The translations under genes and the position numbers were made by a program. A stretch of DNA of 64,000 nt. Source: a virus. Each line of letters begins with the position of its first letter. Positions within the stretch are counted from its first letter, which is position 1. The stretch lies in IMG/VR virus record IMGVR_UViG_3300037882_000231, positions 1-64,000 of that record; one strand, written 5' to 3'. Positions 1,513-46,676 of this stretch are shown here, one piece after another. The notes below the pieces were generated by a model. That model had not been told where the DNA came from and ran no database searches. It saw only the letters and a list, made by a program, of their open reading frames with translations.

Positions 1513-1827
1513 TGGTGGAGGTGGGAGGATTCGAACCTCCGTCTTACATCGTTAAATCTTGAGAGATACAGGCTTGCCATTTTTAGTTGGCTCTATCGTA
1601 CATCTTGTCGCTTTGAAACCGTACATTTTGTCGCTTGCAACTTTCTGTTCCAAAGCAGTTGCCGCTCGTCACAACTCAGACGGTTGCGAGGGATGCCTCG
1701 GCAAGAATTGCTTCTGCCTCAGCGACTACATCATAGTTTGCATTTATTGTTTGTTTGGTCTTTTGAGAGATTCCACTCTGCCTGCCCTTTCGGACCTTCA
1801 CGGATGCAATCGATACCTGGCACCCCC
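1513..1827 (-). ncRNA. ssrA: tmRNA (transfer-messenger RNA)
   Basis: 315 nt. The 5' end GGGGGTG pairs over 7 bp with the 3' end CACCTCC, followed by discriminator A and an encoded CCA. Pair 3-70 is G-U, the alanine identity element. The 3' part has a T-arm GGAGG-TTCGAAT-CCTCC and the 5' part has the conserved-looking GG..TCGATTGCA stretch. An internal frame at 1741-1676 starts GCA AAC TAT GAT and ends GTC TGA, giving a 21-residue tag ANYDVVAEAE... ending EASLATV. tmRNA rescues stalled ribosomes together with SmpB, here presumably the host's, since no smpB gene was seen. Phage tmRNAs are known in some actinophages. The tag lacks the usual ALAA end. Confidence 0.92.
1676..1741 (-). other. tmRNA tag reading frame
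   Basis: Resume codon GCA (1739-1741) to stop TGA (1676-1678), 21 codons, inside the tmRNA. The tag is rich in Ala and Glu and ends Leu-Ala-Thr-Val rather than Leu-Ala-Ala. The end residues decide which protease recognises tagged proteins, so this tag may direct them differently from the host tag. Confidence 0.75.
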
Positions 1828-3134: not shown

Positions 3135-3163
3135 AGTCTATCAGAGTAGAGCAGCGTTGTCAA
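3135..3163 (-). promoter_or_regulatory. Promoter for the 3106-1855 gene group
   Basis: TTGACA (3158-3163), 17-nt spacer ending TGA, TAGACT (3135-3140). It lies in the 3' end of the HAD gene and starts a transcript with a short leader carrying AAAGGA. Its two boxes match those of the promoter at 89-117 exactly. Confidence 0.75.
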
Positions 3164-3650
3164 GCAGTTCTTCTCTGGTGATCTCAGTCTCTTTGAGATC
3201 ACGGTCCCATCCTGGGACCACTACTGTCGGAATGTTGTTCTCCTGCCACATGGTGATAATGGCCGGGTTGTCATCGAACGCAAGGATCGGGTCGTACCCA
3301 ACAGCCCTGATGCGCTCAAGCAGTTCTTGTTTGATTTCGTAGTCAGGGCGGAAGTCTCCGTTGGTACGCATGTAGATATCGTCAAACGGAACTTCTTTCT
3401 CAACCAGCCATACCAGGGTGTGATAGAACCACTTTTCCTGGCGGGCCGTAACGATGAGGACAGCATACCCTTCGGCTGCCAACTTCCTTGCCCTGTCTGC
3501 CACCCATTCATGGGGAGGGCAATCCACAGAGTTAGAGTGGAACGACTCAAAGTCCTTCTTGCCCTTTGGCTTTTGTAGATAGTGTCTGATGCTTGATACG
3601 TCACATAGGGTGCCGTCCATATCAAAGATTACTGCCTCTGCTAGTTCCAT
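3141..3650 (-). CDS. HAD-family phosphatase, polynucleotide 3'-phosphatase-like
   Basis: 169 residues. HAD motif I is F-D10-M-D12-G-T, motif II is V-T68-A-R, Lys107 lies in a RPDYEIK segment and motif III is F-D126-D127-N. This arrangement, including the MRTNGDFRPDYEIK-type stretch, is that of the phosphatase half of T4 polynucleotide kinase and related stand-alone phage enzymes, which strip 3'-phosphates from RNA or DNA ends. No kinase or RNA ligase is fused or adjacent. A strong site AAAGGAGGCAACC precedes the ATG. It lies just downstream of a CAU tRNA, fitting a tRNA-repair role by inference. Confidence 0.85.
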   Translation of the reverse strand: MELAEAVIFDMDGTLCDVSSIRHYLQKPKGKKDFESFHSNSVDCPPHEWVADRARKLAAEGYAVLIVTARQEKWFYHTLVWLVEKEVPFDDIYMRTNGDFRPDYEIKQELLERIRAVGYDPILAFDDNPAIITMWQENNIPTVVVPGWDRDLKETEITREELLDNAALL

Positions 3651-3785: not shown

Positions 3786-3814
3786 ATCATAGCACAGATT
3801 GCCCATGATGTCAA
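3786..3814 (-). promoter_or_regulatory. Promoter for the CAU tRNA and HAD gene
   Basis: TTGACA (3809-3814), 17-nt spacer ending TGC, TATGAT (3786-3791). It overlaps the stop of the upstream gene and reads into the leader hairpin, the tRNA and the HAD gene. Confidence 0.75.
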
Positions 3815-4229: not shown

Positions 4230-4607
4230 TTACCCTTCTGCTAGAAAGATGACCGCACAGATCACCGAATAAACGAGGAGTGGTGCCCATGAGAAGGGGT
4301 TACCACTCAGGATTACAACTATAGCAGCCTCGTACAGGAATGTCAAGCAAAGTGTGAGAAACACCCACTGACTAGAGTTCTTGGGTCGCCTGAGGCTAGT
4401 TGCCTCCCAAACGAGGCCTACGAAGGCGGCGAGTAGTTGAATTGTTCCCACAACCGCTGCGCTTACCGCAAGGGTCGGGCCTGCGCCAATAGATGAGATA
4501 AGCATCGTGTTATCCCCCTGCAAGGCGATGTTAACGAGGCCATAGAAGATGGTTGTTACATACAGGACAACTCTAATTGACTTTAGGGACGCGCCGTGGC
4601 TAGCCAT
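4230..4607 (-). CDS. Membrane protein with about four transmembrane segments
   Basis: 125 residues with hydrophobic stretches near 12-32, 45-70, 82-100 and 105-122 and a basic loop RRPKNSS between the second and third. No family is recognised. The ATG overlaps the thioredoxin gene by 8 nt. A promoter-like sequence lies inside it (4318-4346). Confidence 0.65.
   Translation of the reverse strand: MASHGASLKSIRVVLYVTTIFYGLVNIALQGDNTMLISSIGAGPTLAVSAAVVGTIQLLAAFVGLVWEATSLRRPKNSSQWVFLTLCLTFLYEAAIVVILSGNPFSWAPLLVYSVICAVIFLAEG
4318..4346 (-). promoter_or_regulatory. Possible internal promoter inside the membrane-protein gene
   Basis: TTGACA (4341-4346), 17-nt spacer ending TGC, TATAGT (4318-4323). 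It matches the other promoters of this region closely although it lies in coding sequence. If active it would drive the small membrane gene at 3986-4225 separately. Confidence 0.5.
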
Positions 4608-23634: not shown

Positions 23635-26600
23635 CTAAGAGGTTTTCCATCTCATGCCGTTAAGTGAAACCCAGTCTCCAGAGTCTCCACCAACGGTGAG
23701 ATAACTGTTTCTTCTGACCATGGACGCCGCAGTATTCGCCGCAGAGGCGGTTAGTCCAGTATTGGTAGGGATGAATGAGGGGTGCATAAAGGTGATGAGC
23801 CCTGTTGTGGTTATCCTGAGGTGAGCAAAGTGAAGGAAGCCACTCAATCTAACCGGAACTATGCAGATAGCCGACTGCTTAGGCCACGCGAACTTAGACT
23901 CAATTACACCAATCTGATTTTCCGACACCGGATCGGGCGGCTCAAGATTAGCCCTCGCTAGGAGTCCAGACATTGACCACCAACCATCAACTTCTTGATG
24001 AACGTTAAGACCGCCAAACCCATCATATACCGTCCATCCAGAGTGAAGGTTGACCTGAACAACCTGACCATAGTTTCCTGATAGTACCACCTCACCAGCC
24101 GTCAAGATGATTCTACTGGTGGATGCAATAGATGCCTCTGATGCGTCTGGAATGTCACCACCGTATGCCGCGTCGTTTTCAGTGACCATTCCGGCCCTGT
24201 TGGTGTTGATAGCAAAGCCACTCTGACCAGAAGTTTTTCTCACTGTTCCAGGCTCCATGGTGATAGAGGCCGGAACCCTTTCTAGGATTGACGTTGGGGA
24301 GGCAATCTCGATCTGCGGCTTCTCCTGGTCATAAATGTATACAACACCTACCCCTGGATTGTCAAACATCTTTGAGTCAACGTACAGGTTTCTGCTTGTT
24401 GTGTCCCAACCATTGATCTCGGCTTTTACCACAACTAAAGTAAACTTTTCTGTAGATAGGTGCTCAGGATATCCATTGGCTGTACTGTACTTTGAGTCCA
24501 CATACAGCACCTCCTTGGTCCTAGCGGTCAGTGATGCATGTGTGCTAGTGGGGTCAATTGACGAATTGCCAATACCACGGATCATAGAATACTGATTGAT
24601 GGTGTCTGGATTTGACTGGATCGCAATCATGTCACCTACACTGAATTCATCTTGTGCGGTGTCTGTTCCAATGTCAATGTACATGAAGTGTCTATTAAGA
24701 ACAGCGCCAGATACATACGAGTCACCAGATGGAATATGAGATGAATCAAACTGGAACTGGGTACCAGATAGAACCCTACTCACAACAATTCTACCGTTAA
24801 ATGACCCGACAGTAGACCCAGTAATGTAAAGTGACATGCCTGGATAAACACGAGTATCGTTGCTTGTTTGGATATCAGTTGACATCGTTATAGTTCTGGT
24901 AGTGGTACCGCTTGAAATGCTAACCACGCTAGCAGAAGGCGTTGTTAGTGTGTAGTTTACAGCACCGCTAACTGTCGGCCACGGTAGGTTCGCCTCGGGC
25001 AGAGCCCACCTTCTAGGCCTGCTATCAGAGGCAAGTGCATGGCCCTCTCCACCAAGCACCCAAAATTCCCTATCGGACTTGACCCTCAATCTTGGGAATG
25101 AGTAGTTGAACGTACCAGACTTGGTTTTGATTTCAACCCTCTCACCATTTTTAAGGCCATGGGGAATTGGTGTGTAGAACGCTTGCGTCACTGGCTCAGT
25201 GCCTGTATCTATGGAGTCTGTAGCATCTGTAGTTGTTACATTCAAGAAGTAGTTGCCGATCCTTCTATAGTTGTTTCCACTAATACTTGCCGTCCTAACC
25301 CTGTGGATAGGAATGACTCTTTCGACTGTGTTAGACACATCAGGAGTTGAAGCAGTAGAGAAGTTTACGGCTGTTGTTTGCGTGTTTGGAGTGCAGGTAA
25401 ACGTATTATTCAAAGAATCAATGGCTGTTACGGGAACAGGCTCAAGCGTAACTGTACCCACAGCACCACTAGAAATGTTTTGGGCTACAATCTCTACATA
25501 GTCCCCAACCGCCAGCCCGTGCTTTTCTACTGTTGTAAACAGGACAGGTGAGGTTCCAGCCGTTCTGGACGCTGCTGAGATTGTGGACCTCTTCCTACGC
25601 TGAGTCTTTACACCAGAAATTGTTGCTGGTGACTCTGACGTATCCTCAGAACCAGATGGAATCGCAATGTACGCACTTCCGGCGCTCTCCTCGATGACAA
25701 CACCTGGAGTTACAAGTTCTATTCTTGCAGAAGAGATGTCAGCCGCTGCTGTAGATGCCGGGGAGGTGTAGAAACTGCCCTGCGCGCCACCAGTAACTCC
25801 TGCTCCGATGGCAGATGTGTAGACAACGGTGTTGAGGGTAGTCGAGTAAACAACAGCAGTCTCATTTAGACCACTTGTGCCGGTGATAGTAATAGTCTGA
25901 CCTGGCATACATTCGGCCATAACTCCAGACCAGCCAGTAACCGTTACTGTCCTTCTGCCGGATGACAAATCAGAAATCGATGTGACAGGAAAGGCCACAG
26001 GAACATTATTGTTCTTAACTGTTACCGTAGTATCGGTAACATTAACAACCCTGAATGTTCCGTTAGAGAATGACGCCTTTGCCGAAACAGTTGTCGGAAC
26101 CGTTGGCCTAATGGTGTATAGAGACTCTACGTCAGACAGGAAGGAAAGGAATCTTGGGTTATAGCCAGTATCAGGAATGTAGACAAAACCACTACTTGCA
26201 TAGCGCGTTGACTGTGCGGTAATGGATGTAGTTGGAGAGATACTAGACCTAACAGCAGAGTCATTCTCATACGACATGCCAAGCGTCCCTGGCACGCCCG
26301 CTTCCGTAACGCTCTGGAAGGTGTCTGGGCCAGCCCCACCAAAGACTGAATTTCTGTACTTAAGACTAGATACAAGGCCGTTCTCAATATTTGTACTACC
26401 ATCTCCTGGTACGAATGGATGCGGGTCTCCAAATGCAAACCTCCAGTGGTTATACTTTAGTACACCGCTTGTTGCACCAGTTGGCATGTTTCCGGTACCA
26501 ACCCTTTTACACCTAAACGTCTTTGAACTTACAACGGTAGTAACCTTGTGGAATGGGTTAGAAAAGTTTGTTACTGAATAAGGAGTTATAGCAGCGGCAG

Positions 26601-29600
26601 TTAGTCCAGTGATTACAAATGGCTGCCCGAGGGTAAGACCATGAGCAATGTTCGTCTTGATTTCAATCTCGTCGCCTACGTTTGCACCGAGAGCCGTGAT
26701 TGATAGGATATTGCCTGCAACAAATGACGACTGTACACTGTAGTAAGAAGAAATCTCTGCCTGCAACTGACCATGACCGTATACCGACCAATCCTTTCTG
26801 TCAAGTTGCTTGTTGCCAGAAGAAATCTTTACGTTACAGCCATTTTTGTAAGTGTAACTCAGTGGGCTGACAGCCCTTGACTGAACTAGTCCTGTTCCAA
26901 TTGCAACGAGGCTGAATGCGGGAATATTCTCATCCCATAGGTCGGTTACCCTTACTGAGTCGCCAACAGAAATACCATGCCTAGACGGAAGCACAAACGT
27001 TTCTGTCCTAGCCACTGGATCAAACGAACGTGAATCAATCGGCAGCCTCTCAGAGATTCTTGTCCTGAGTGTGGCTCCACCGGCAGTTACCCTTCCGGTT
27101 GTCCTATCAAACTCAAAGGTCTTTGTAGAAACAACCCCGCCATTGATTGCTGAGTTTTTATATCCATGAATTCCGTCTACGTCAATGGTGATGGCTGGGG
27201 TATCCTGAGAGTTTACAACCTCTACGACATCGATTCCAGTTTCATCCATGATGACGCGGTTACCAGTCGCAGGACCAATTTCAAAGTTGTTACGAATGGT
27301 TACGTCATTGAATTCTGCACTACCCGCATCTCCTGCGACCTTAAATCCAGAGGTGTTGGCACTGTAGTTCTGCGACTGGATAAGACCACCAGTACCAATA
27401 ATCAGGTCGGTGATAATGCTCGTACCGGACATGAAAACATCTGCGTTGATCGTCTGTGCCGAGATTGATCCACCATCAATCTTCGAAAGCGTTCCAACGT
27501 TGAATGCAGACGGCGTTGCGCTAGCACCCAACTTCTGCTCGACCATAACTCCATCTAGGCCCCAGGTTGTTGCCGTTGCCGATGCTGCGGTAAATGATAG
27601 GTTGGCTCTGTTTGCACTTCCGCCCGTTGTGAACGTAACCTGATACCTTGTCGCTGTCGAGGTTAGGATTGACTGTGCGGTGGCGACAATTGTTCCACCC
27701 ACATCCTGATTAATAAGGACGTTCAGGGTCTTAGCGGAACCTGATGTCTGCCTCGCGTAGAATGAAAGGATATATTCCGTGTTAGGACTCAGTGGAATGT
27801 TGTATGTCGTACCGTTGCGTGCTAGTTGCACACCAGAGTTAGCGGCGGTCGTTACGAACTGCAATCCATACCCGCCGATTGCCTTCGCAGCAACGTCAAT
27901 AGACCTCGTGGCAGTACCAATAACTGTAACGTGGAACGACCTAGTTGGATCGGTGTACCCTGCTGTTTCGTATTCAAAGTCTGCGTATGCCGGTGGCATA
28001 AGGTTGGTACCAGTTCCACCGATTAGGAGAGTAGCGGCAGAGATCGTACCGTTCTTAATGTCAAGGGCGTTGTTAGACAACTCCCATCCACTGGTCGGGT
28101 AACTAGATGACCTCAGCCTAGCAGTTGACGAGAACGTAACGTCTACCGTTTCCTGAGCCGTACCAGGGGTTGTAATTGTATCAGCCGGACTCTCAGAGTA
28201 GGTAGATACGTTGTTGTAGAAGTCAACCGATGCGACCTGGACGTAATATGTCCTACCTAGTCGAAGCCCATCGATTGTTGCAAACAGTTCAGTTCCGCTC
28301 GTACCCATAAACGACCACCTGGCACCAGTGTAGGTGGGCTGGCTTCCACCATTTAGGTCATCTGTGTATCGAATCTTGTAGTTACGAACCCTTGATGCAT
28401 CAGTCGGCACAAGCCACGATACGTTGATTGAGGCCGTACCATTCGTACCCGCCACTGGAGTTACGTTTGTTAGGGTGACCGCACCAGGAATTGCAGAGTT
28501 GGTATTCGTGTCAAACTGAGCCAACTGTGTAGTCGTACTTTCGGCTGTTGGTGGTGTCCCGCTCGACTGTGTTCCCAATAGGTCAACTGGTGCAACACGG
28601 GTCCTGTAGGCTGTTGTTCCAGTTGTCGCCCACTCCGCTTGGAGAAGAGAGGTCCTAAATACCCTGGTTGTTGGGGGATTGCTTGTATCCGAGTAAACGT
28701 TATACTGCTCTGCACCCGTAACGGCACCCCATACAGCCCTCATTTGACCAACGTATGCTGTTACTGTCAAGTTTGGTGTTCCACCACCAACGGGCCATGC
28801 TAGGTCGTAGATGTGGTTTACCGCAGATGCGCCATTTGTTAGACCGGTAGCAGACTTTACAACAGGCGATGTATCTGTGTAGGCCTTAATGGAAACGCCG
28901 GTATTGGCTGGAAGGCTAGTTGTGTAGGCATTTGTCGTTAGACCAGAAGCCCTGTTCAACTCGTGTGTCCAAACAAATGAATTGGTTGGAGTTGTGTAAG
29001 TATGTGTTCCATTAGCGCCCGTTAGAGTAACCTCATACCCAGCGATGTCGGTCGTTAGACCACCAGCAGTAGATGGTGCCACCCATGTTAGTGTCAGGTT
29101 GTTAACGTTAGTCCATGTGTATTCAAAGGTTGATGGAGTTCCAGGCGTGTAGGCTGCGAGCGTGCTGTTGAACTCTGTGCTTGCTGTGGACTGGTTTCCA
29201 GAAGAGTCAACGGGAATTACCTTGTAGCGAACAGTCGAGCCACGAGTTAGTCCAGCAATCGTTGCAGTTCCAAGCCCACCGGTTCCAGCAGTTACCCCAG
29301 CAGCGCCACCAGGGACAGTTAGTGAGTTTGTGTACACACCAGCAGAGCCGGTACCCCACCTGATAACGTACTCGCTAATTGTTTCCGCTGGGGTGTACGA
29401 AGCCCATGAAATGGTTACATCATACTTGCCCTGAATCTTTGGAGTTACTGTTGTGGAATCAAGTGCCGTCACGCCAGCAGGAGGCGTCGCGTCTCCAGCA
29501 ATTGTCTGAGTAAGGAACGAGCCTTCTAGCGGCAAGGCCGATTGTGTTCCCACTGTGTCAACGGAGTAAATTCTAGTGTAGTAAGTTGTGTTTGGAGTAA

Positions 29601-32600
29601 AACCACTCAGCGTAAAGTTAGGAACCCTCGTTGAGAAGTTCGGCCTCGCTGCAAACGGAACAGTCCTGCCAGCATTGGTCCATAGAGTAACGTTGTACGA
29701 ACCAGCACCATTCTTTACGTCATCATTGTTTGGCTCAGTCCATGAGTAGGTTACAGAAGTCGATCCTGCTGTGGCGATAGGGGAAGTTGGAGCGTCTGGA
29801 GCAGCATTGACAATAGCCGCAAGGTTGTTGGCAATAGATGAGGCACTCAACTTGTTGTTAACGTCTCTAGCATGGACAACAACAGCGCCCTGGGCATATG
29901 AAGTGCTTACCGCCCCGAAAGCCTGGAATTGCTCAGTCTGATCAAGTACGAGTCTGCCCCTGACATCCGTTGAAACACCAGGAATCTGCGGCACATCCCA
30001 TGAATACGTCTTAGAGTTCGCAGTAATGGTTACCCTGTAGCCATTGAAAAGTTCGGGTGTGTACGTCTGTGTATCTAGCCAGGTCAGGACCAGGTTTGGC
30101 GAGTTGTAGACGCCCTGGACCTTACCGGTTCCAGTTACTACGGAGTTGGCTGGACTCTGAATTCCGCTGACAAGCAACTTGCCTGTCGCAAATTGTTGCA
30201 GTACAGTAGACGATCCAGAGTCATCAAATCCATCATCTGCATAAACTGAAACATACCAATTAGTCGGTGAGGCACTGGTTTCTGTTACGAATGTCGTTGA
30301 GGTTCCAGGCCCACGGTACACGAGGTCTGTTGTTCCAGTACCAGCAGAGTAGGAGCCAGACTTGGCATAAACCCTGTACTCGACAATATCTGCACCGGAC
30401 GTAGGAGCCCTCCACTGGGCCGTCATAGAACCAATTGCTGCGGTTAGGGTCAGGTTCGTCGCCGGAGCCGGTGCCCCCTTGTTAGCAGCAACCGTTGGGG
30501 TAAGAGTTCCTGAAACCTGTGTTGGATCAAGTACATGAACAGAACGCAAAACAATGTCCGATGTTCCAAGCTGAGAATCGGCTACGCCCAACTTTTGCTT
30601 GTAGTCCTCGTACTTGATTAGGATGGACTTTGCTGTGGTCTCCCATATACCAGTTCCTCCGGTGCTAGTAATTGATAGACGGTACTTACCGAACGTGTTT
30701 GCAGCATAGGAAGTGTTGTCGGTCCATGAAACGCTAAGGTCGTTACCTACCCAGGTTGCTGTTATAGAGCCCGTTGGTGTAGCAATTGTTGGCCTTACTG
30801 GAGTTGCATCACTTGTTTCAGCGCTTCCGTTATTAGCGTTTCCACCCTTATCTACCGCGCGGATCAAGATTTTGTAAGTAGTGTTTGGAAGTAGGTTAGG
30901 AATCGTGTAGTTCTTGTTTACTGTAACGAGTGAGTGTGTGTACGTTGCCGCAACCGTACCCCACTGGACGACGTAGTGAGAGAAGTCTGTTGCATGAACT
31001 GCCTGGTCGTATGTGATTACACCAGAAATGCTGCTGACGCCAGCATAGTCAGTTGCCGGAACCATAGTCCACGTTGGCGCGCTTGTTGGAATAGTTGAGT
31101 CTCCAGAGTTTGATAGCGCCTGGTAAGAAGCGGATTCTATTGATACAACAGCAGTTCTACCAAAGATGTCTCTAGCGCGTACCGCCGCTGTGTAACTAGC
31201 CCCACCGGTCAGTCCTGGCTTAGCGAATGTAAGCGTTTTTAGGTTAGCGCCATCAATGGTTGAGAACGTAGTCGGATCACCAGCAGCAGGCTCGATATCG
31301 ATATCGTAGTAGTCAACAATATCTGCTGTTGGCGGCACTGTTGTGGCTGGCTGCGACCACGCCCAGGAGATTCCCTCAAGGAACGGCGTCCCAGTGGGTG
31401 CCGCGATAGTGCCTAGTGTTGGGTACGAGGCTGCTGCTGATGCACCCGCTGTTGTGACTCCAGCCAAGTCCTCAGTTGTAACTAGGAACGCCGGGTTTGA
31501 TACGCCACCAAAAACAGCCCTGTTCTCATCGAACGTCAGCGTAAACTTGTTTACTGTCTTGTCGTAGACGTAATATGTTCTACTAATGCCAGAGAACGTA
31601 ATAACAACCTTGTATCTGTAAAAGTCTGCTGCCGTTTCTGCTGTCCAGGTTGCTGTAATACCACCAGCAACGTAGCCACCAGTAAAGTTTGGCGTTCCTG
31701 GGTTAGTTGGTGCGGCATTTGTGTAGGCTCCAGTGCTGGCGATGGCACCAGCGGGAGCAGCACCCTGAGTGGAGAACGTTCCGTAAATTGATACGGCGTA
31801 AACCCTTACAGCACCCGAGGCGAATGACGTAACGCCAGTTCCACCAAACACAGCCTTATTCTCAGCACGAGTTAGAGTGAAGGCTTTTTGTGTCGTTCTC
31901 CAAGACTTATAGGTAATCCATGCATCGTTGGTAATTCTTACCTCGTAGCCCCAGAAGTGAGGAGAGTATGTCTGAGTATCTGTCCATGAAATGTTTAGGT
32001 CTGGGGTAGTGAACGATCCACTAACCGAGCCAACTGGCGTTTCAATGGTCGGTACCGCCGCCGTTGTTGCCAAGACGGAATCCGTCCACGTTCCCCTATT
32101 TCCAGATGTATCTAGTGGAGCAACCTGAACCCTATACGGTGTACCAGGAACAAGGCCTCGTAGGTAGTAGGTTTCAGTTCCACCGGCAGTTGCATTTACC
32201 TTTGCAAATTCAGCACTTGACCAGTTCATGTCAGAAAGTGCTGTGGTCCACCTAATCTCGTACTTATCAAGGTCTGCGGCAACTGGAACTGTCCACTGCA
32301 ATTGAAGTGTTGCCACACCGCTCGTTGTGGTTCCAGGCGTATTGTCTGCAACCAGACCAGCGATCTGCGCTGGTGCAATTCCATCTGCTGCGACAACCGT
32401 AATAGCAGTTTCACCATCAGTTCCCTTTGCTCCAACAGTTCCAAATACGTTATATGGAAAAACATCACATAGCCAAGCGGCAGTGCTGCCGTTAGTTAGC
32501 CATGAAACCTCTCGTGTAGCATCTGTTACGCTTGCGATCAGCGTTGATGCTGCTGGCGTTCCGGCGTACACATCATATCGGTATGCCCCAGAGGTTGTGG

Positions 32601-34338
32601 TAAAGACAACCTTCATAACATCGATACCTGGGTAGACTACAGGAGTTGCCTGCGCTGCCTGTATTGGTGAGGTGTAGACCGCAGAGGTCTGTGTTCTACC
32701 GAAAAGGTCTGTGACAATTGTTGCTACCTGGAAGCGGTGGGTATTCGTTCCAACAGTGAGCGCAATTGGTGGTGCTGGAATCTGCTGTGGAGACACGGTT
32801 TGAACAATGTTTGCACTAGTTGGGGCTGTCGCTCCGTTAAGTGATGAAAGTGCAATGACCTCGTACTTGACGACATTCTTTGATGTCGATGCTGTCCAAG
32901 TGAACGACACCTTGCCATCGATAATCGAATGGATAGAGGGAGCCCCACCAGCAGCAAGGGCTGGTAGAGCGCCTAGAGAGGTCGGGCTCTTTCCAGTTGT
33001 GTCCCTCATTCCAAAAGCATTTACAGCCCAAACCTTAATGTTTCCGTAAAGGAGTCCCGTATTCTGCCCCCAAATTGAGACCCACTGAGACGGAGATATC
33101 ACTACGCGCTTGTCGAGTGACGCCCTAAATGTCTTGACAATTGTGTTGTATGTGATCTCAACATCGTAATGTGAGAAGTAGGCTTCGCTACCAACAGTTC
33201 TAGAGTCTCCAAAGGTGATAACAAGGTCTGATGTTGACCAGTCTGCCGTTACCGTACCAGAAATTACTGCCGGGGCAGCCGTTGCGAGCGTTGTCGTTGT
33301 GGCAGCCCTCCATGCACTTAGTAGTCCAGCAGCATTAACGGCTGCGACCTCTACTGTGTAAGAAACGTTTGCTGTCAGGCTCTTGAATACATGAGTTAGT
33401 GTCGATGTACTAGCAAAGAAGGATGACCATGCTGTGTCAGAAGCAGACTTGATTCTCACATAGTAACCAAGAATTGTCCCATCGGAATCTACCGCTGAGG
33501 GCCAGTTCGCCACGAATGAAGCCATGCCGTCCTGGGTAATGTTCTGGTTGGTGATGGTAACCGAATCGGCTAGTGTAGGCGGTGTAGAATCAGGAGTTCC
33601 ACCAGTCTGATCCGTACCAGACATGAGGGTTGTTGAAACATGTGCTCCTGGCCTTCCGAATACATCAACGGCACGAATGTGCGCGTCGTACTGCGTACCA
33701 GGCGAATCAATGTATAGATAGTTGAACCCGTAGACCCTCGCCTCAACGTCTGCGCCATTAACGAAAGGAGTGTTTAATCCATCTGCATCAACGTCAACCT
33801 CGTAGTAATCAACGGTCTTTGTCTCGTTACCAGCACCGGTTGCTGGCTCTGTCCACTTCCAGTTAATTCCATTTACTACGGCGACATGAGCGCCCGCGCC
33901 AGGAGCCGCAAGGACTGGGTAGGCTGCGGTTGCGTCCATTGACGTAGAAGATAATTGACCTGACTTGTCACGAGCCCAAACCTTAAATGTTGGGTCTGGG
34001 ATTGGGGTAACACTTAGGGAGTCGTTTAGGGCAAGTGTGAATTCAAACTTCTTGGCGTCGGCAACGCCATACCTGCCGAGAACAACGGCATTGTCCCAGA
34101 CCTCCACGATGTACCCATCAAAGTCTGGCAATAGCGGTTCAACCCCATGGTCCCACGATAGTGTGATGTTACCAGTTGTGTAAGTAAGAACAGGGTTGAT
34201 TGGCTTTGGGTGTGGCTGGTTCACACCAGTGGTAAATGTATAGGTCTGAGAGGCCGCTGTAGCCCCACCAGGACCGTTAGCAATAAACTGTACGGCGTAC
34301 TGCGTACCTGGCTTTAGATTTCCTAGGGGGGTGATCAC
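23635..34338 (-). CDS. Giant fibronectin-III tail fibre / central tip protein
   Basis: 3567 residues, the largest gene here. About the first 2050 residues are tandem fibronectin-III-like modules, recognisable by recurring SW/TWT strands and endings such as L-x-P-x-T-x-Y-x-V-x-V-x-A-V-D; another recurring module has ISWTDTQTYSP and a Trp-x-Val loop. A carbohydrate-binding-like module follows near 2100-2230, then a GSISAQTINAD...SGFKVAGDAGSAEFNDVTIR segment near 2285-2350, typical of phage tail-tip J/Tal proteins, and about 1200 residues of beta-rich receptor-binding sequence. The GTG start overlaps the upstream stop (GTGA); the first module lacks its front half. It probably contacts the host surface. 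Confidence 0.88.
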   Translation of the reverse strand: MITPLGNLKPGTQYAVQFIANGPGGATAASQTYTFTTGVNQPHPKPINPVLTYTTGNITLSWDHGVEPLLPDFDGYIVEVWDNAVVLGRYGVADAKKFEFTLALNDSLSVTPIPDPTFKVWARDKSGQLSSTSMDATAAYPVLAAPGAGAHVAVVNGINWKWTEPATGAGNETKTVDYYEVDVDADGLNTPFVNGADVEARVYGFNYLYIDSPGTQYDAHIRAVDVFGRPGAHVSTTLMSGTDQTGGTPDSTPPTLADSVTITNQNITQDGMASFVANWPSAVDSDGTILGYYVRIKSASDTAWSSFFASTSTLTHVFKSLTANVSYTVEVAAVNAAGLLSAWRAATTTTLATAAPAVISGTVTADWSTSDLVITFGDSRTVGSEAYFSHYDVEITYNTIVKTFRASLDKRVVISPSQWVSIWGQNTGLLYGNIKVWAVNAFGMRDTTGKSPTSLGALPALAAGGAPSIHSIIDGKVSFTWTASTSKNVVKYEVIALSSLNGATAPTSANIVQTVSPQQIPAPPIALTVGTNTHRFQVATIVTDLFGRTQTSAVYTSPIQAAQATPVVYPGIDVMKVVFTTTSGAYRYDVYAGTPAASTLIASVTDATREVSWLTNGSTAAWLCDVFPYNVFGTVGAKGTDGETAITVVAADGIAPAQIAGLVADNTPGTTTSGVATLQLQWTVPVAADLDKYEIRWTTALSDMNWSSAEFAKVNATAGGTETYYLRGLVPGTPYRVQVAPLDTSGNRGTWTDSVLATTAAVPTIETPVGSVSGSFTTPDLNISWTDTQTYSPHFWGYEVRITNDAWITYKSWRTTQKAFTLTRAENKAVFGGTGVTSFASGAVRVYAVSIYGTFSTQGAAPAGAIASTGAYTNAAPTNPGTPNFTGGYVAGGITATWTAETAADFYRYKVVITFSGISRTYYVYDKTVNKFTLTFDENRAVFGGVSNPAFLVTTEDLAGVTTAGASAAASYPTLGTIAAPTGTPFLEGISWAWSQPATTVPPTADIVDYYDIDIEPAAGDPTTFSTIDGANLKTLTFAKPGLTGGASYTAAVRARDIFGRTAVVSIESASYQALSNSGDSTIPTSAPTWTMVPATDYAGVSSISGVITYDQAVHATDFSHYVVQWGTVAATYTHSLVTVNKNYTIPNLLPNTTYKILIRAVDKGGNANNGSAETSDATPVRPTIATPTGSITATWVGNDLSVSWTDNTSYAANTFGKYRLSITSTGGTGIWETTAKSILIKYEDYKQKLGVADSQLGTSDIVLRSVHVLDPTQVSGTLTPTVAANKGAPAPATNLTLTAAIGSMTAQWRAPTSGADIVEYRVYAKSGSYSAGTGTTDLVYRGPGTSTTFVTETSASPTNWYVSVYADDGFDDSGSSTVLQQFATGKLLVSGIQSPANSVVTGTGKVQGVYNSPNLVLTWLDTQTYTPELFNGYRVTITANSKTYSWDVPQIPGVSTDVRGRLVLDQTEQFQAFGAVSTSYAQGAVVVHARDVNNKLSASSIANNLAAIVNAAPDAPTSPIATAGSTSVTYSWTEPNNDDVKNGAGSYNVTLWTNAGRTVPFAARPNFSTRVPNFTLSGFTPNTTYYTRIYSVDTVGTQSALPLEGSFLTQTIAGDATPPAGVTALDSTTVTPKIQGKYDVTISWASYTPAETISEYVIRWGTGSAGVYTNSLTVPGGAAGVTAGTGGLGTATIAGLTRGSTVRYKVIPVDSSGNQSTASTEFNSTLAAYTPGTPSTFEYTWTNVNNLTLTWVAPSTAGGLTTDIAGYEVTLTGANGTHTYTTPTNSFVWTHELNRASGLTTNAYTTSLPANTGVSIKAYTDTSPVVKSATGLTNGASAVNHIYDLAWPVGGGTPNLTVTAYVGQMRAVWGAVTGAEQYNVYSDTSNPPTTRVFRTSLLQAEWATTGTTAYRTRVAPVDLLGTQSSGTPPTAESTTTQLAQFDTNTNSAIPGAVTLTNVTPVAGTNGTASINVSWLVPTDASRVRNYKIRYTDDLNGGSQPTYTGARWSFMGTSGTELFATIDGLRLGRTYYVQVASVDFYNNVSTYSESPADTITTPGTAQETVDVTFSSTARLRSSSYPTSGWELSNNALDIKNGTISAATLLIGGTGTNLMPPAYADFEYETAGYTDPTRSFHVTVIGTATRSIDVAAKAIGGYGLQFVTTAANSGVQLARNGTTYNIPLSPNTEYILSFYARQTSGSAKTLNVLINQDVGGTIVATAQSILTSTATRYQVTFTTGGSANRANLSFTAASATATTWGLDGVMVEQKLGASATPSAFNVGTLSKIDGGSISAQTINADVFMSGTSIITDLIIGTGGLIQSQNYSANTSGFKVAGDAGSAEFNDVTIRNNFEIGPATGNRVIMDETGIDVVEVVNSQDTPAITIDVDGIHGYKNSAINGGVVSTKTFEFDRTTGRVTAGGATLRTRISERLPIDSRSFDPVARTETFVLPSRHGISVGDSVRVTDLWDENIPAFSLVAIGTGLVQSRAVSPLSYTYKNGCNVKISSGNKQLDRKDWSVYGHGQLQAEISSYYSVQSSFVAGNILSITALGANVGDEIEIKTNIAHGLTLGQPFVITGLTAAAITPYSVTNFSNPFHKVTTVVSSKTFRCKRVGTGNMPTGATSGVLKYNHWRFAFGDPHPFVPGDGSTNIENGLVSSLKYRNSVFGGAGPDTFQSVTEAGVPGTLGMSYENDSAVRSSISPTTSITAQSTRYASSGFVYIPDTGYNPRFLSFLSDVESLYTIRPTVPTTVSAKASFSNGTFRVVNVTDTTVTVKNNNVPVAFPVTSISDLSSGRRTVTVTGWSGVMAECMPGQTITITGTSGLNETAVVYSTTLNTVVYTSAIGAGVTGGAQGSFYTSPASTAAADISSARIELVTPGVVIEESAGSAYIAIPSGSEDTSESPATISGVKTQRRKRSTISAASRTAGTSPVLFTTVEKHGLAVGDYVEIVAQNISSGAVGTVTLEPVPVTAIDSLNNTFTCTPNTQTTAVNFSTASTPDVSNTVERVIPIHRVRTASISGNNYRRIGNYFLNVTTTDATDSIDTGTEPVTQAFYTPIPHGLKNGERVEIKTKSGTFNYSFPRLRVKSDREFWVLGGEGHALASDSRPRRWALPEANLPWPTVSGAVNYTLTTPSASVVSISSGTTTRTITMSTDIQTSNDTRVYPGMSLYITGSTVGSFNGRIVVSRVLSGTQFQFDSSHIPSGDSYVSGAVLNRHFMYIDIGTDTAQDEFSVGDMIAIQSNPDTINQYSMIRGIGNSSIDPTSTHASLTARTKEVLYVDSKYSTANGYPEHLSTEKFTLVVVKAEINGWDTTSRNLYVDSKMFDNPGVGVVYIYDQEKPQIEIASPTSILERVPASITMEPGTVRKTSGQSGFAINTNRAGMVTENDAAYGGDIPDASEASIASTSRIILTAGEVVLSGNYGQVVQVNLHSGWTVYDGFGGLNVHQEVDGWWSMSGLLARANLEPPDPVSENQIGVIESKFAWPKQSAICIVPVRLSGFLHFAHLRITTTGLITFMHPSFIPTNTGLTASAANTAASMVRRNSYLTVGGDSGDWVSLNGMRWKTS

Positions 34339-39352: not shown

Positions 39353-39816
39353 GCTTCCTCCAGACTTAGACTAATCTCCCAAAAGTCAAAGTCTTTTCCT
39401 CGCTTTTGGATTGATGCGCTAAAGTCTTTGAAGAAAACGTCGTATACTCCGAACGTCTGCCATGAAATGAGATCACCAGCCTGGTCGTTGTCCGCAAATA
39501 GGCCTAGTCTGAACTGTCCCTTCACAGCCTTGTGAAAGTTAATCAAGTCATTTGCAGACGAGTAACCATCTGCTACAACATTCTGTGTACCAACGTGCGA
39601 CCTAGATGGAAGCATTTCCCATGAGCACGACCATGAGCGCTTATCAGCAATGAACTTAGACCTCATGGTACCGTTCGCCATTCTTTCGCGCTTCTCAATT
39701 CTCTCAACCTCAACCTCAAGGGGTGACCTACCGTGGTCGGTTACGCGGAAGTCCGTTCCAGAAAGATAATCCGCTGATCTAAAAACCATTAGCGATGGCC
39801 TGTAGAAGTAACTCAT
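39349..39816 (-). CDS. Distal tail (Dit-like) protein
   Basis: 155 residues, between the tape measure and the Tal-like hub, the standard place for a distal tail protein. It starts MSYFYRPSLMVFRSADYLSG and ends in strands FGVYDVFFKDFSASIQKRGKDFDF / WEISLSLEEA. No direct motif; assigned from order, size and beta character. ATGA overlap with the tape measure. Confidence 0.65.
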   Translation of the reverse strand: MSYFYRPSLMVFRSADYLSGTDFRVTDHGRSPLEVEVERIEKRERMANGTMRSKFIADKRSWSCSWEMLPSRSHVGTQNVVADGYSSANDLINFHKAVKGQFRLGLFADNDQAGDLISWQTFGVYDVFFKDFSASIQKRGKDFDFWEISLSLEEA

Positions 39817-42800
39817 CTGCGACCGACCCTCTTCTGAGCGCTATCAATGCGCTTGAATACCTCGTCGGCAACCTCGCTGGCGCTTTGTCCTGGCTGCTGG
39901 TGAATATCAATCTTGAACGAGTGAGTGCTCTGGTCGATGTTACTTGCCTTGTGGTCCATGTCTTTAATTATACCAGGAACGCTACGGATTCCCTGAATTC
40001 CATCTTCTAGGGCCGAGGCGACAGGTGCCCTAAGCACGGCTTCCTGCTTGTGGAGGTTGGCAAGGGTGTTATCCTTTAGGACTGTTCCACCCTTCTTTAG
40101 TTGCAGCGCGCGAGCATTTAGATCCTCAGTCCATCCCTGGAACCTAAGCGAACCTCCATATGAATTCATTGGCCTGGTTCCGACCTTTCCAAGTCCAGCC
40201 GCGTCAGTTGAACGCACCTTTCCGTTTCCAACATACATCGCAACGTGACCATACCCCTGTGATCCACCGGTCCAGAAAACAGGAGCACCAATCTTTGGAT
40301 TAGCGTTACGGTGTTTCTTTGTTGAATTCTCCCATGCAACCGCAGCGGAACCATAAAGACCTGGAACGTTCCACCATTCACGAACCTGGCGCAAACAGTA
40401 TCCAACCTCGTTTGTGAAGTCAGACATAGCGCGTGCAACCGCAGCCTGAGCCTGTGGGCTTACACCAGTCATATCAATGCCGGACCAGTCAGGTGCCACA
40501 CCTGGCATACCAACATTTCCTGCTACACCACTTGGTACACCGTACTTTTCCTTAGCCTTCTTTGGGAAGTATTCATCATGAGCGAACTTAAGGACCTTCT
40601 CCGTCAACTTACCGCGAACCTTCTCACCGAGAATTGCGCCTAGTCCGCTAGGAGATCCCTTTCCTTCGTCGTGTGGGCTAACGTTTCCATAGTTGACACT
40701 GTTTAGGAAATCCTTTCCGTACTTCTGAACAGCCTGTCGCCTAACAACAAACTCACCGGACTGTAGTGTTGTTGGAACTTCGTCTGTTCTGAATCCGCCA
40801 CTTCTGGTTCCGTCAGGCGATACCATTCCACCAGTGTGAAGAGTTCCTGGTCGTCCACCTGGATAGGCGGGGAGAGTAGACTTGTTTGGAGTTGGTGCGA
40901 CACCCCTTCCACCTACTCTAGTTTCTGGGTTATCTGCATACCACTTAGCAGTCCTGCGAGCAGCCTCATTCTCGATTCCAAGGACATTCAAAACATCTGC
41001 CCATGCATCAAGGAGTTGTGAAGTAATGTTTCTCTTAAACTCCGCTGTCTTCGCTGGGCCCCAGCCCAACTTGTTAGCAAGGTCGGTAACAATAATGTCC
41101 GTGCTCTTTCTCAACTTTTCCTGGGAAAGTTTACCAGCAGCCGCCTGCCTATCAAGTTCAGCAATTTGTGCATCGGCCGTTGCAACAGCATCATCACGAG
41201 CCTTTACCTCACGGTCGTACTGTGCCTGACGCATCTTCTTTTGACCGGCGATGTAACTTTCCTTCTGCTCCCTGAATGACTCCATCGCCTCCTGCCTGCG
41301 CTCCTGAGCCTTCTGGAAGGCCTTGTCTTCCGCTTCGCCAACCTTGTTAATGGCATCGATCTTATCCTGCTGCTTATCAATCTCAGCCTGAATTCCATCG
41401 ATAACCTTTTGCTTAGCCGCAACCTTCTTGTCGTACTCCTTATCAATGGCATCACCAGTCTGCTCGTACTGGTAATCCTCCTGCTCCTGGCTCTGCTGAT
41501 TACCAAGCCTTAGAGCGCCAACAACGTCACCGCTAGATACGGCCTCCTGGTACTCTGCCTCCAACTGGTTCTGAGACTTGAAGAAGTCAGAAGCCTTTTT
41601 GGCGTCCTCAAGAGCCTTCTTCTTTGCGTCGCGCTCCTTCTCGATCTTGTCGATTGTATCCTCGACCTTATCGATCTCCTTTTGCTTAGCGTCAATTGAC
41701 TCTTCGATCTTGTCAATCTCGGCCTCGCGCGCTTCCTTAGCGGCCTCGGCAGCCTTCTGTGCAGCCTTGTCTGCCTTCTCCATTCCCTTGAGACGGGCGT
41801 CATAATTCTTTGCAGCGCGATCCTCAAGTGGCTCGATCTTCGTCTGCTCCTTGATGTACGACTGTGCAGCATTGGTCGCCTGATCGAATATCGAGAACTG
41901 TTCAGTTAGCGCAACAGTCTCACGAACAGTCAAGTTGATAAGAATATCTCTAGGGAGAATATTCAACTTTCCTAGCATACTATCTAAGAGTGACTCAGCG
42001 TCCTTACCAGATGCCTGAAAATCTTCAAACGATCCAAGGGCGTCACCAAGTCCTGGTGAAATTTGGTTAACCTGATCAACCAGGATGCCCCACGACTGCA
42101 CGTTAAATCCACCAGCGTCAACGGCGTCGGCAACGCTAGAGAGTTGATCTGCAAACGTTTTAACAATAACGCCAGTATCGCCAGTTCCAAGGGCCCCCTC
42201 AATTGCTGGTCCAAACTGATTAGCAAAATCCTTTGCCAATGAATTCATATCACTCTGAGCAATGAGATCGCTTCCACCTGGCAAGTCCTTGCGGAACTTC
42301 ATTAGGTCCTTCTTGGCATTAATCTCGGCAACCCTTGCGTCTAACGTATCTTGAAGTGACTGCTTACCTCTTTCCTGTACGGCAGCCCACTGATCAGCAA
42401 CATCTGCCTCCTGAGAGATAATCTTGAATAGCATATCAAGTTCAGCCTGCTTGGTCTTTCGCTCTTCGCCTTCATAGAGAGCGTTAACAACACCGGTCTG
42501 CTGCCTGTAAGAGTTCTCAAATACCTTAATTCTTTCATTCCCTGGGGCCGCTGCCTTTACGTTCTCAGTAATATCCTTAGCGTCCTGAGAGTTATCGTAG
42601 GCTTGCTGAGCCTTATTACGCATCGCAGGGTCCTTAGTTCCCTCTGGGTCTGCAACGGCATCCTTGAACTCTCTTGGCTTGATGCCAATCATTCCCCACT
42701 TTGTCTCTCTAGACTTAGCGTCGCGCTCCGCTTCCTTACGATTCTTATCCCACAACTTATAAATTCCCCAAATTGCCAATCCTGCACCGGCAAGTCCGAG

Positions 42801-45800
42801 CATTAATGGAGCATTTGGTAGAAGCATTGACCCTAGAGAGGCGACACCACCCTTGAATGACTTAATTCCCTCGGCAAGCCCACCGGCCCTCATCATTCTA
42901 GTGGAGACTATCGTCTGAGCAGCAAACAACTGCACAGCAGCACGGGCATTGCCAAGGTGCTTACCAAACTGTGTCATTGCACTAGCAGCGGGGCCAGCAG
43001 CCATAGCAATCATACTTACCGCTGTGAGAGACATACCGAGTTGACTGGCCGTCTCGTTTCCAGTAAGCATTCCAACACCCATAGCGCCCATACCGGCAGA
43101 CATTGTTCTACCCTCTGCCTTATTAAAGAACGTTCCAGCCTTCGATGATGTTCCACCCGCTGACTCCTGAACGTTAGCAGCAACCTCAACATCCGCTGCG
43201 GTAAGAAGTCTCCTAGACGCGTCCTTAATGGTGTCGGCAGATGTTAGTTGCTGCGCCGCTGCGCGCGCTGCCTGTTCAGATGCAGTGATAGACTTCTGTG
43301 CGGCGCGCTCCTGAGTAATTGCGGCACGCGCCTGAGCCTTGGCTGCCTCCATCTCTACTCTAGCCGCCTGAATTTCAGTAGCAACGTCCTTGCCCATTGC
43401 GGCAACAATTGGAGCAAGTGACGCCCTTAACTGTGTCGCCATCGTTCCGCTCTGCCCCTTCAAGGCATTCTGAATTGCCGAAACATAAGCAGCACTGTTG
43501 CCCTTTAGATCACCGGTCGCTCTGCGCTCCATGATTGGCGCAAGTGTCTTTGACAAAGCAGAGTTGCTCTTGGAGACAAAACTATTAATACTTTTTGTCA
43601 TCGAAGTCATTCCACTTGAAACGACCTTCTTTGACGCAGCAGACTCAGCCTCCAAAATACCAAGTCTCTCCTTTGCCGCCCTGTACCTCTCTTTAGACTC
43701 TGCAACGGCTGCATCTTTTTCCAGCCTAGCCTTTTCTCTAAGTTCGCCAGTCGAGTCCTGAATGTCAAGTTCCGCCGCCTCCCTTAGAAGTGAGAGATCT
43801 GAGATCAACTGCTCAATGGGCTTTCCGGTTGATGCGCTCACTCTTGCCAACTCATCCATTTTCTGGAGCAAGCCAGTCAGGGATGCGTCGTACCTTGACT
43901 TAATCTCTGGGTCTGCCAAAAAGTCCTGTGTCTTAGCACTCTTTCCAAGAGTCCTAAATCCTGTTTCATTTCCAGTGTTTTGCGCCACGGCTGCCATTCC
44001 AGCAATTGCTAGATTCGCTCCCGGATTATTAGACCATACCTGACCAGGATTTTGCATGACGCCACCGTTCCTAGCGCTATTTGGAAGTTCCGCTTCATAC
44101 ATTTGTGGAACATACCCTCTATCTGGTGTTCCTGCGCGCCTCTTCCAATCTGCTTCGGGAATGCTGTGGCTAGCAACGAGCCCAGCCTCTGGCGAACCAA
44201 ACCTTCCACCTGTTGCAGAGTAAAGAGCGGCGGAATACTTGTAAGTTCCAGAACTACCCCTGCCGCTACCAGTTGACTTGCCCTGTAGGTCCTGATTAAT
44301 CCTATCAAGGTCTTCCCTGTTTACATACTTTGGATCTATAGAGGCGAGGACAAATGTTCTCATCTTGTCCGCTATCTGACGGCCTGTCTGACTATCCCCA
44401 ATCTCACGAATTACTCCCTCGTGAATCATATCCCCTACGGCCCTAAAGTCGTCTGGCGTTATTGCATCATACATAGCAGGAGCGACTTGTGCTCCGATCC
44501 TATCCATCATTTCACCAAATTGAGGGAACTGGGTTTCTACATTCGCTCTTAGTGACTCAACCGTTCCAGTACTTCTGAAATCAACGTAATCTCTGGCTAG
44601 AGTGGGGTCAGCGGCGATAACTGCATTTGAACTCTTTTCTGTCGCCTCGGCCCACGCGGCACTAGAAAGGCCATTCGCTGCCGCTCCGTAAGGAAGTGAC
44701 GCTCCCTTAGTTCCAGGGATCGATGCGCTCATTTGAGCGCCAGTCATAGCCTTCGCTCCATTCGCAACCGCTGCCTGAGCGCCAGCCAATTCCTTAAGTT
44801 CTAGAACCTGCTTCTCTAGAAGTGCATTGATTTCCTTGAGCGCAGCAGCCTCATCGAACTGTGCGTTAACAAGGTTCTCCATTGCAACAGTAGCGGCCAT
44901 AGAGTCCTGTGTAAGCATAGAGAACATTCCACCGCCGCGTCCACGAAGCATCGCCCAGCCCTTCTTCAACTGACCAATGAAGTTACCAAAAACACCGAGG
45001 ATCATTAGGAATGGACCAATCAATGCGGCAACGCCAGCAAGCCCACCAAGGAGCCCCTTGATTGGGTCTGGCAACTGCTCAAAGATTTCAAGGACAGATG
45101 ATGCCGTCTTTAGAACAAGGGTGAAGACCTTAGTGATGGCCTCACCAATTGGAATAAGGTTTGCCTTAAATGACTCTACCGCGCGCTGCCACTTCATGCT
45201 AGTGGACTCAGTCAGACGGCCCATTTCTCGATCAGAGTTAGCCTTTAGGTCAGCAGCGCTTGCTCCCATAAGGTCGAACACTTGCATCGTCTGACTACCC
45301 TTCTTTCCAAGGTTGTCAAACAGTGCAGAGATACGAGCGAACTGGTACTTACCGAAGATTTCTTCAATCAACTTAGCGCGAGAGAAATCATCTAGCCCGT
45401 CCAAAGCCTTCTTGAATTCCATAAGAGTTGGAATGAGTTCGCCCTTGTTGCCCTCAACAATTCCAACCAGGTCGATGCCCATTTCCTTAGCGACCTTAGA
45501 GGCCTGCTTGCTTGGGTTAATCATAGATGCCAGACCGGACTTGATGGCGTTCGCGCCTTCGGCTGCGTCAATTCCACCTTCCTTCATGGCTGTCATCATA
45601 AGAGCCAGATCCTTTACGTCTCCACCAAGTGACCTAACAACCGGGCCAGCCTTTGGAATTGCAATGGTGAGGTCCTGTAGGCTTGTTGAGGTCTGGTTTT
45701 CAACCGCGTTGAGAAAGTCGATTGATCCAGCCAAATCCTCATTGCTGATCTTGAAAGCATTCTGTAGAGAAAGCGTGGCTTCCATCGCTTGCTGGCGGTC

Positions 45801-46676
45801 AACTTCACCCAGCACCGAGAGCCTCATCGCTTCCTTAGTGGAAATTAGAAGGTCTTCACCTTCCTTACCGGTGGCTGCAACCTCAGCAGCGAGCCCAGCA
45901 GTCTCCTTCATCGAGACGCCCCACTCTGCCGCTAGTTCCTTTCCTAGCCCCTTTACGCTGTCCTTGATCTGAGTAATTTCCTGGTCGGTGGCTCCTTCAA
46001 TTCCGGCACCATAAACCTTACCCAGGCGAGTCATTTCCTTATCTACTTCAAGGAATACGTTCTTCGCTGCGGCACCGAACATAAGCATAGGAATTGTAAG
46101 ACCAACCATGATCTGACGACCGGCCCACTGTGTATTCTTACCCCAGTTAATGGTTGATTCAGCATTCTGTGCTAGAACCCTGTTGTAGATCTTCATTTCC
46201 TGCCTTGCTACGGCAGTCTTTGTTGCAGCATCCTGCATGTTAACACCTAGCGGTGTTGAAACCCTAGCCTGGTCCTTACCCTGTGAGTCCTTGTAGAAGG
46301 ACACAACGGACCTAGACATACGAACCTGCTCCTTAGCAAGTTCGGTAATCTCCATTCGACTACCAGAAACATTACGCTTGTAGTCCTTAATAAGTTGTGA
46401 CTGCCTAGCCATGGAGAGATTGTTCTTCTCGATGGCCTTACCCAACTGTACCGCACCAGTCTCCATAGAGACAACTCCGGTAGACCACATATTCATGGCC
46501 TTTAGATCACGGGTAAGCCCAGAGTTCATCTGTGCTAGTGAAGAAGTCTTAGCAGCATTCTGAGATGCAAGAATTGCCTCGTTGAGAGACGTAATCTGCC
46601 TACGAAGCCTAAGTGTTGCTGCGGCATAACCACTTGTATCTGCCGAATACTCAATTAATACTCTATGCTTCTCCAT
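39813..46676 (-). CDS. Tape measure protein with CHAP-like hydrolase domain
   Basis: 2287 residues from ATG 46676, preceded by GAGGTGATTG. Residues about 205-400 match the TP901-type tape-measure core (LAAEVAATGKEGEDLL, LGGDVKDLALMM). A stretch near 1350-1370 is hydrophobic, and a long coiled coil of Lys/Glu heptads spans about 1625-1770. Near the C-terminus a CHAP/NlpC-like domain shows GYCLRQVREWW (Cys about 2092) and GYGHVAMYVG (His about 2142). It sets tail length, and the hydrolase may open peptidoglycan during DNA entry. If other rules hold, tail length should be near 340 nm (0.15 nm per residue). Confidence 0.93.
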   Translation of the reverse strand: MEKHRVLIEYSADTSGYAAATLRLRRQITSLNEAILASQNAAKTSSLAQMNSGLTRDLKAMNMWSTGVVSMETGAVQLGKAIEKNNLSMARQSQLIKDYKRNVSGSRMEITELAKEQVRMSRSVVSFYKDSQGKDQARVSTPLGVNMQDAATKTAVARQEMKIYNRVLAQNAESTINWGKNTQWAGRQIMVGLTIPMLMFGAAAKNVFLEVDKEMTRLGKVYGAGIEGATDQEITQIKDSVKGLGKELAAEWGVSMKETAGLAAEVAATGKEGEDLLISTKEAMRLSVLGEVDRQQAMEATLSLQNAFKISNEDLAGSIDFLNAVENQTSTSLQDLTIAIPKAGPVVRSLGGDVKDLALMMTAMKEGGIDAAEGANAIKSGLASMINPSKQASKVAKEMGIDLVGIVEGNKGELIPTLMEFKKALDGLDDFSRAKLIEEIFGKYQFARISALFDNLGKKGSQTMQVFDLMGASAADLKANSDREMGRLTESTSMKWQRAVESFKANLIPIGEAITKVFTLVLKTASSVLEIFEQLPDPIKGLLGGLAGVAALIGPFLMILGVFGNFIGQLKKGWAMLRGRGGGMFSMLTQDSMAATVAMENLVNAQFDEAAALKEINALLEKQVLELKELAGAQAAVANGAKAMTGAQMSASIPGTKGASLPYGAAANGLSSAAWAEATEKSSNAVIAADPTLARDYVDFRSTGTVESLRANVETQFPQFGEMMDRIGAQVAPAMYDAITPDDFRAVGDMIHEGVIREIGDSQTGRQIADKMRTFVLASIDPKYVNREDLDRINQDLQGKSTGSGRGSSGTYKYSAALYSATGGRFGSPEAGLVASHSIPEADWKRRAGTPDRGYVPQMYEAELPNSARNGGVMQNPGQVWSNNPGANLAIAGMAAVAQNTGNETGFRTLGKSAKTQDFLADPEIKSRYDASLTGLLQKMDELARVSASTGKPIEQLISDLSLLREAAELDIQDSTGELREKARLEKDAAVAESKERYRAAKERLGILEAESAASKKVVSSGMTSMTKSINSFVSKSNSALSKTLAPIMERRATGDLKGNSAAYVSAIQNALKGQSGTMATQLRASLAPIVAAMGKDVATEIQAARVEMEAAKAQARAAITQERAAQKSITASEQAARAAAQQLTSADTIKDASRRLLTAADVEVAANVQESAGGTSSKAGTFFNKAEGRTMSAGMGAMGVGMLTGNETASQLGMSLTAVSMIAMAAGPAASAMTQFGKHLGNARAAVQLFAAQTIVSTRMMRAGGLAEGIKSFKGGVASLGSMLLPNAPLMLGLAGAGLAIWGIYKLWDKNRKEAERDAKSRETKWGMIGIKPREFKDAVADPEGTKDPAMRNKAQQAYDNSQDAKDITENVKAAAPGNERIKVFENSYRQQTGVVNALYEGEERKTKQAELDMLFKIISQEADVADQWAAVQERGKQSLQDTLDARVAEINAKKDLMKFRKDLPGGSDLIAQSDMNSLAKDFANQFGPAIEGALGTGDTGVIVKTFADQLSSVADAVDAGGFNVQSWGILVDQVNQISPGLGDALGSFEDFQASGKDAESLLDSMLGKLNILPRDILINLTVRETVALTEQFSIFDQATNAAQSYIKEQTKIEPLEDRAAKNYDARLKGMEKADKAAQKAAEAAKEAREAEIDKIEESIDAKQKEIDKVEDTIDKIEKERDAKKKALEDAKKASDFFKSQNQLEAEYQEAVSSGDVVGALRLGNQQSQEQEDYQYEQTGDAIDKEYDKKVAAKQKVIDGIQAEIDKQQDKIDAINKVGEAEDKAFQKAQERRQEAMESFREQKESYIAGQKKMRQAQYDREVKARDDAVATADAQIAELDRQAAAGKLSQEKLRKSTDIIVTDLANKLGWGPAKTAEFKRNITSQLLDAWADVLNVLGIENEAARRTAKWYADNPETRVGGRGVAPTPNKSTLPAYPGGRPGTLHTGGMVSPDGTRSGGFRTDEVPTTLQSGEFVVRRQAVQKYGKDFLNSVNYGNVSPHDEGKGSPSGLGAILGEKVRGKLTEKVLKFAHDEYFPKKAKEKYGVPSGVAGNVGMPGVAPDWSGIDMTGVSPQAQAAVARAMSDFTNEVGYCLRQVREWWNVPGLYGSAAVAWENSTKKHRNANPKIGAPVFWTGGSQGYGHVAMYVGNGKVRSTDAAGLGKVGTRPMNSYGGSLRFQGWTEDLNARALQLKKGGTVLKDNTLANLHKQEAVLRAPVASALEDGIQGIRSVPGIIKDMDHKASNIDQSTHSFKIDIHQQPGQSASEVADEVFKRIDSAQKRVGRR

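Follow-up and report, generated by a model that had tools for sequence, protein, structure and literature searches.

A phage tmRNA is commonly taken for spare rescue capacity, and Asp-Asp tags are known to stabilise. Individual phage genes of this kind are already known: those of BillNye and Circinus are annotated as tmRNA in GenBank, and that of Bxz1-like mycobacteriophages is listed among the phages with ssrA (Ends of the line for tmRNA-SmpB, PMC4131195). As for the bacterial counterpart, the host tag of Streptomyces coelicolor ends in ...SSQQAFALAA, as deduced from the peptide of a DD variant (PMC2635970). Finally, breakdown of the engineered ssrA tags ASV and AAV is slower than that of LVA and ceases in a Salmonella clpXP deletion, i.e. 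they are ClpXP-dependent (PMC11003136).

The locus described here lies in a window, the whole stretch of DNA analysed, of 64,000 bases from a 64,698-base IMG/VR virus record. The portal, capsid-protease and DnaE proteins of this phage are closest to those of Streptomyces phages of the Stanwilliamsviridae, with about 50% identity, and this kinship makes an actinobacterial host likely; no DNA-level relatives of the window were found in the phage collection. The window also contains two very long open frames in the tail region (23635-34338 and 39813-46679; 3567 and 2288 aa), a 976-aa tail-fibre-like protein with collagen repeats and a GDSL lipase/acylhydrolase domain (60029-62959) and, near the tmRNA, genes for a Macro-domain protein and a PNKP-like phosphatase (2184-2669 and 3141-3650), possibly with RNA-repair functions. 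The parts of the tmRNA locus are listed below.

1513..1827, minus strand: one-piece tmRNA gene (ssrA), 315 nt, Rfam RF00023
1838..1866, minus strand: sigma-70-type promoter TTGACA-17-TATACT, a consensus match only
1821..1827, minus strand: 5' strand of the acceptor stem, GGGGGUG, with G3 at 1825; covaries across relatives
1676..1741, minus strand: tag reading frame, from the resume codon GCA (1741-1739) to the stop UGA (1678-1676), encoding ANYDVVAEAEAILAEASLATV; same frame in three relatives
1633..1662, minus strand: putative H-type pseudoknot GCAACU-GCUU-UGGAACAGAA-AGUUGC-AAGC, read from sequence
1597..1636, minus strand: 17-nt direct repeat, two copies 23 nt apart, between the pseudoknot and the tRNA-like 3' half
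1513..1540, minus strand: T arm (1540-1524), 3' strand of the acceptor stem CACCUCC (1523-1517, U70 at 1519), A73 and encoded CCA
89-117, 3786-3814 and 4318-4346, minus strand: TTGACA-17 promoters close to consensus, with TG ahead of the second hexamer; tRNA genes follow immediately after some of them

Regarding its detection, the whole RF00023 covariance model (1-374) aligned from 1827 to 1513 with 94.2 bits and an E value of 2e-35, twice the gathering score of 47, which bears out the tmRNA that the earlier note had placed at 1513-1827; the gene is on the minus strand. ARAGORN, the other tool which that note had named, did not report the gene when run on the window, a limit of the tool and not a biological definition, so that detection relies on the covariance model and on hand checks. 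The latter found a tRNA-Ala-like acceptor, in which GGGGGUG pairs with CACCUCC, with G3-U70, a discriminator A and an encoded CCA, together with a T stem of 5 bp closed by the loop UUCGAAU. G3-U70 was invariant in 14/14 phage relatives, and pairs 2, 4, 5 and 6 varied on both sides; the T stem covaried too, and the compensatory change reached four pair types at one acceptor position and three at T-stem positions. G3-U70 and the encoded CCA, both proposed before, are thus borne out. The covariation puts the window tmRNA beyond chance, as do three other phage tmRNAs in which a close relative of the tag occupies the resume site.

The tag is read from GCA within AAUAAAUGCAAAC, so that resume codon, short frame and stop are all present; it ends in LATV and not in the (A)LAA of an ALAA-type proteolysis tag, as had been noticed before. 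One H-type pseudoknot is readable at 1633-1662 by sequence alone, and its loop motif GGAACAGAA is common to many phage tmRNAs; plain folding gave a z-score of only -1.73. The promoter, also anticipated as a strong one, matches 11/12 consensus positions, has TG ahead of the second hexamer and ends 10 nt before G1. The same strand has, within 5 kb, three more TTGACA promoters of this type, one of them directly ahead of tRNA-Leu, which suggests that the tmRNA and the tRNAs of the window probably share one promoter class. The window tmRNA is without the internal promoter found in several ALAA-type relatives; in three of these (L088, L089 and L091) a sigma-70-like promoter sits inside the 3' part, just before the T arm, with examples such as TTGACA-17-TATGCT and TAGACA-17-TATAAT, and it overlaps a structural helix in part.

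It is reasonably likely that 1827→1513 encodes a functional phage tmRNA and that it belongs to an actinophage-type class, widespread though patchy, in which the tag would be a replaceable module that retunes the fate of rescued proteins.

As for the class, long non-ALAA tags were collected from 16 phage tmRNAs besides that of the window; 15 of these tags have A-E-x-E-A, usually with A-E next after two residues, and then a hydrophobic end (LxTV, LASV, SLV, ALV or SA). The window tag combines such a core with an uncharged hydrophobic end and belongs with them, as do those of the Streptomyces phages BillNye, Ankus and Byblos and of the Bxz1-like mycobacteriophage ET08; the comparison with other phage tmRNAs that the earlier note had proposed has thus brought out related long acidic tags. 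When the last 16 residues were compared in register, 0/200,000 permutations reached the score observed between the window core and the BillNye/Ankus-type (NIDAEYEA) core; against the core, the ET08 tag gave p 1.5e-4 and that of the Wildcat-like Cosmo p 0.28, the chance level. The terminal residues varied across the class (VTV, ITV, ASV, SLV, ALV, QTV, VNA and ISA), and two natural relatives (L250 and L254) end exactly in ASV, as LASV; all ends are uncharged and mostly small and hydrophobic.

Members were found by several routes. An RF00023 scan of DnaE relatives, with no peptide query, gave 14 tmRNAs; the tags of 11 end in ALAA and those of the other three are ADNIDAEYEALCAEYALVTV (BillNye), AMDNIVSASMENIDAEYEALVAEFSLVTV (G037) and ADNIDAEYEALCAEYSFVTL (G044). 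Portal relatives contributed four more, all ALAA (4/4). Pattern scans gave the window-like tags ADYDVVAEAEAILAEASLISA, ADYDVVAEAEAILAEAALVNA and ADYDVVAEAEAILRSAALATV and likewise further NIDAEYEA tags; a loose motif scan returned, among the matches listed, mostly protein-coding chance, and only matches in a tmRNA context were kept, while the exact motif matches in IMG/VR were all tmRNA tags (12/12; 3/3 of window type and 9/9 NIDAEYEA). One of these tmRNAs (L252), with no RF00023 match, was assigned by hand from its G3-U70 acceptor and TTCGAC motif. The NIDAEYEA pattern had 6 matches in 84,980 bacterial genomes, all inside longer ordinary open frames and none a tmRNA by ARAGORN; a bacterial source of this tag was rejected, as 6/6 matches fell in ordinary proteins. 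By tblastn, a 20-aa query of the tag had no match on plasmids, a weak indication at that length, and the window tag, a short query, none in named phages. Some tmRNAs (L093, L095, L249 and L248) have a predicted resume codon for Gly (GNSQNAFALAA, GNAMDNID...) or possibly Asp (DETNQ...), not Ala, and those of L093-L095 are very short, at 226-227 nt. In metagenome 3300025875, two large phage contigs hold the two long-tag types, NIDAEYEA and DYDVVAEAEA (L165/L092, L207/L259).

Most sister phages have ordinary ...ALAA tags, some of them on similar tmRNA backbones, so that the tag behaves as a swappable module. G037, with a 29-residue tag, and G095, with ADYALAA, show an identity of 87% in the stretch before the tag and of 77% in that behind it; for BillNye and Comrade (ANSKNASAYALAA) the values are 80% and 76%. 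By BLAST, only the tag-coding stretch matches between G037 and BillNye, and on the DnaE tree well-supported branches force the tag type to change at least three times. Backbone identity, tag-only match and tree together indicate that the tag is transferred, or else gained and lost, separately from the backbone. The tmRNA of G095 (L366) has its seven-residue tag on nearly the same 5' backbone as G037.

Regarding selection, five members of the NIDAEYEA subgroup, found by the covariance model or whole-gene BLAST and not by peptide, served as an unbiased set; by Nei-Gojobori, their 11 core codons had a pN of 0.05 and a pS of 0.49, with a ratio of 0.10 (pairwise counts, non-independent and uncorrected), and their last five codons a pN/pS of 0.21. 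In all eleven NIDAEYEA members, the codons not fixed by the search pattern gave 0.34 for the core and 0.59 for the end. At the sequence level, the core of this subgroup is thus shown to be under purifying selection and, with its ratio below that of the last five codons, to be more constrained than the end read by the protease, which suggests that something recognises it. In the window subgroup (4 tags), the unconditioned codons gave 0.80 on 5 codons, a value from few changes and too small a sample, and other low ratios are biased, as members were found by peptide pattern; selection on window-type tags is therefore extrapolated from the sister group.

An unlikely explanation, but one to be weighed against these values, is that of an ordinary extra tmRNA, by which the phage, much as it does through its many tRNAs, only increases capacity, here for rescue, the tag end having drifted because any small hydrophobic end suffices. 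The widely varied terminal residues agree with it, as do the higher pN/pS of the last five codons (0.21-0.60) and the ALAA retained by most relatives; however, drift leaves unexplained a conserved acidic core, with its pN/pS of about 0.10, which recurs across phage groups, a Bxz1-like phage included, and whose motif matches were 12/12 in tmRNAs.

On the favoured reading, in which the tag is a module that retunes the fate of rescued proteins, the tmRNA would be transcribed from a strong promoter of its own, host enzymes would process and alanylate it, and host SmpB would carry it; a search of 18 records, the window phage and 17 others, gave no SmpB gene, so the host protein must serve. It would enter the stalled ribosome, and the long acidic tag would be translated onto the stalled chain up to the stop, a rescue by the standard route to judge from the anatomy. 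In place of the short host-like ...ALAA tag there would be an acidic core, A-E-x-E-A-x-x-A-E, predicted to be alpha-helical, and after it a short end, uncharged and hydrophobic, resembling weakened ssrA degrons. The most likely outcome would be slower Clp-dependent turnover, together with a host or phage protein that recognises the core.

As for turnover, it is expected to be reduced and not abolished, because LATV comes close to the engineered ASV tag and LASV is the end of two relatives. That the tag stabilises rescued products, or diverts them from ClpXP altogether as the earlier note had supposed, is improbable: no tag of the class has a charged final residue, unlike Asp-Asp tags, and Cosmo keeps LVAA. 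The window end does differ from LAA, and V-ended tags are weaker degrons, in line with the earlier idea that a changed end may change proteolysis, but in Salmonella the slower breakdown of ASV and AAV depends entirely on ClpXP (PMC11003136), and escape from this protease is not supported. Least probable is that the core is kept for the RNA structure of the tmRNA and not for the peptide, since, although tag codons in tmRNAs overlap helix regions and a small hairpin, ACUAC-GAU-GUAGU, is kept by eye at the tag start of the window subgroup, changes in the NIDAEYEA group concentrate at third codon positions (3, 4 and 12 at the three positions, in a partly biased set) and the unbiased set has a pN/pS of 0.10.

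To return to the tag as a retuning module, the changed end was all that the earlier note saw; the internal acidic core, which other phages have as well, is more conserved and more unusual. Being conserved, and with no role in the reading of the last residues by ClpX, it appears as the best candidate for an added recognition element. The tag is predicted as a single helix (mean pLDDT 92.6, which says little on function for a 30-residue peptide). Tentatively, the core may be a phage-specific sorting signal, by which a dedicated factor of host or phage (an adaptor, a non-ClpX unfoldase or a sequestering protein) would recognise the incomplete proteins rescued in infected actinobacteria, so that trans-translation would be rewired and not merely boosted; neither the structure search nor the comparison with Pup found a partner. 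Known structures containing the tag gave chance-level matches only (best E 1.3). Two ideas were rejected: mimicry of Pup, an acidic helix read by the actinobacterial proteasome, as six phage tags aligned locally with the M. tuberculosis Pup sequence no better than shuffles (lowest p 0.16), and an amphipathic helix, as the hydrophobic moment of the tag was no higher than in shuffles.

In conclusion, a tag that phage groups have in common, that selection maintains and that is exchanged among similar tmRNAs matters in itself to the phage. In the literature covered, subscription papers being outside it, no non-ALAA phage tag was found described as shared, selected or swapped. Why phages carry a tmRNA at all is an old question, now testable in isolated phages (BillNye, Bxz1-like), with a new degron or sorting tag for actinobacteria as a possible yield.

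Among known systems, BillNye and its Stanwilliamsviridae-type relatives Circinus, Ankus and Byblos share with the window a one-piece tmRNA and a long acidic tag, such as that of BillNye given above; their core, DAEYEALCAEY, and that of the window, VAEAEAILAEA, are identical at 9/16 of the last 16 residues, and DnaE is only about 50% identical. ET08 also has a long acidic tag, ATDTDATVTDAEIEAFFAEEAAALV, with a DAExEAxxAE core, but it differs in its AALV end, its phage group and its tmRNA of 437 nt, while Cosmo, again with a phage tmRNA and a long acidic tag, AVDTDVDFAMWEAELASDLVAA, aligns to the core no better than chance. The bacterial tmRNA of S. coelicolor has in common the TLD, the resume site, the alanine-specific acceptor and the need for SmpB, and differs in its tag, a short ALAA degron. 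Finally, the engineered ASV and AAV tags resemble that of the window in their small residues ending in V; unlike it, they were built in the E. coli tag, without the acidic core.
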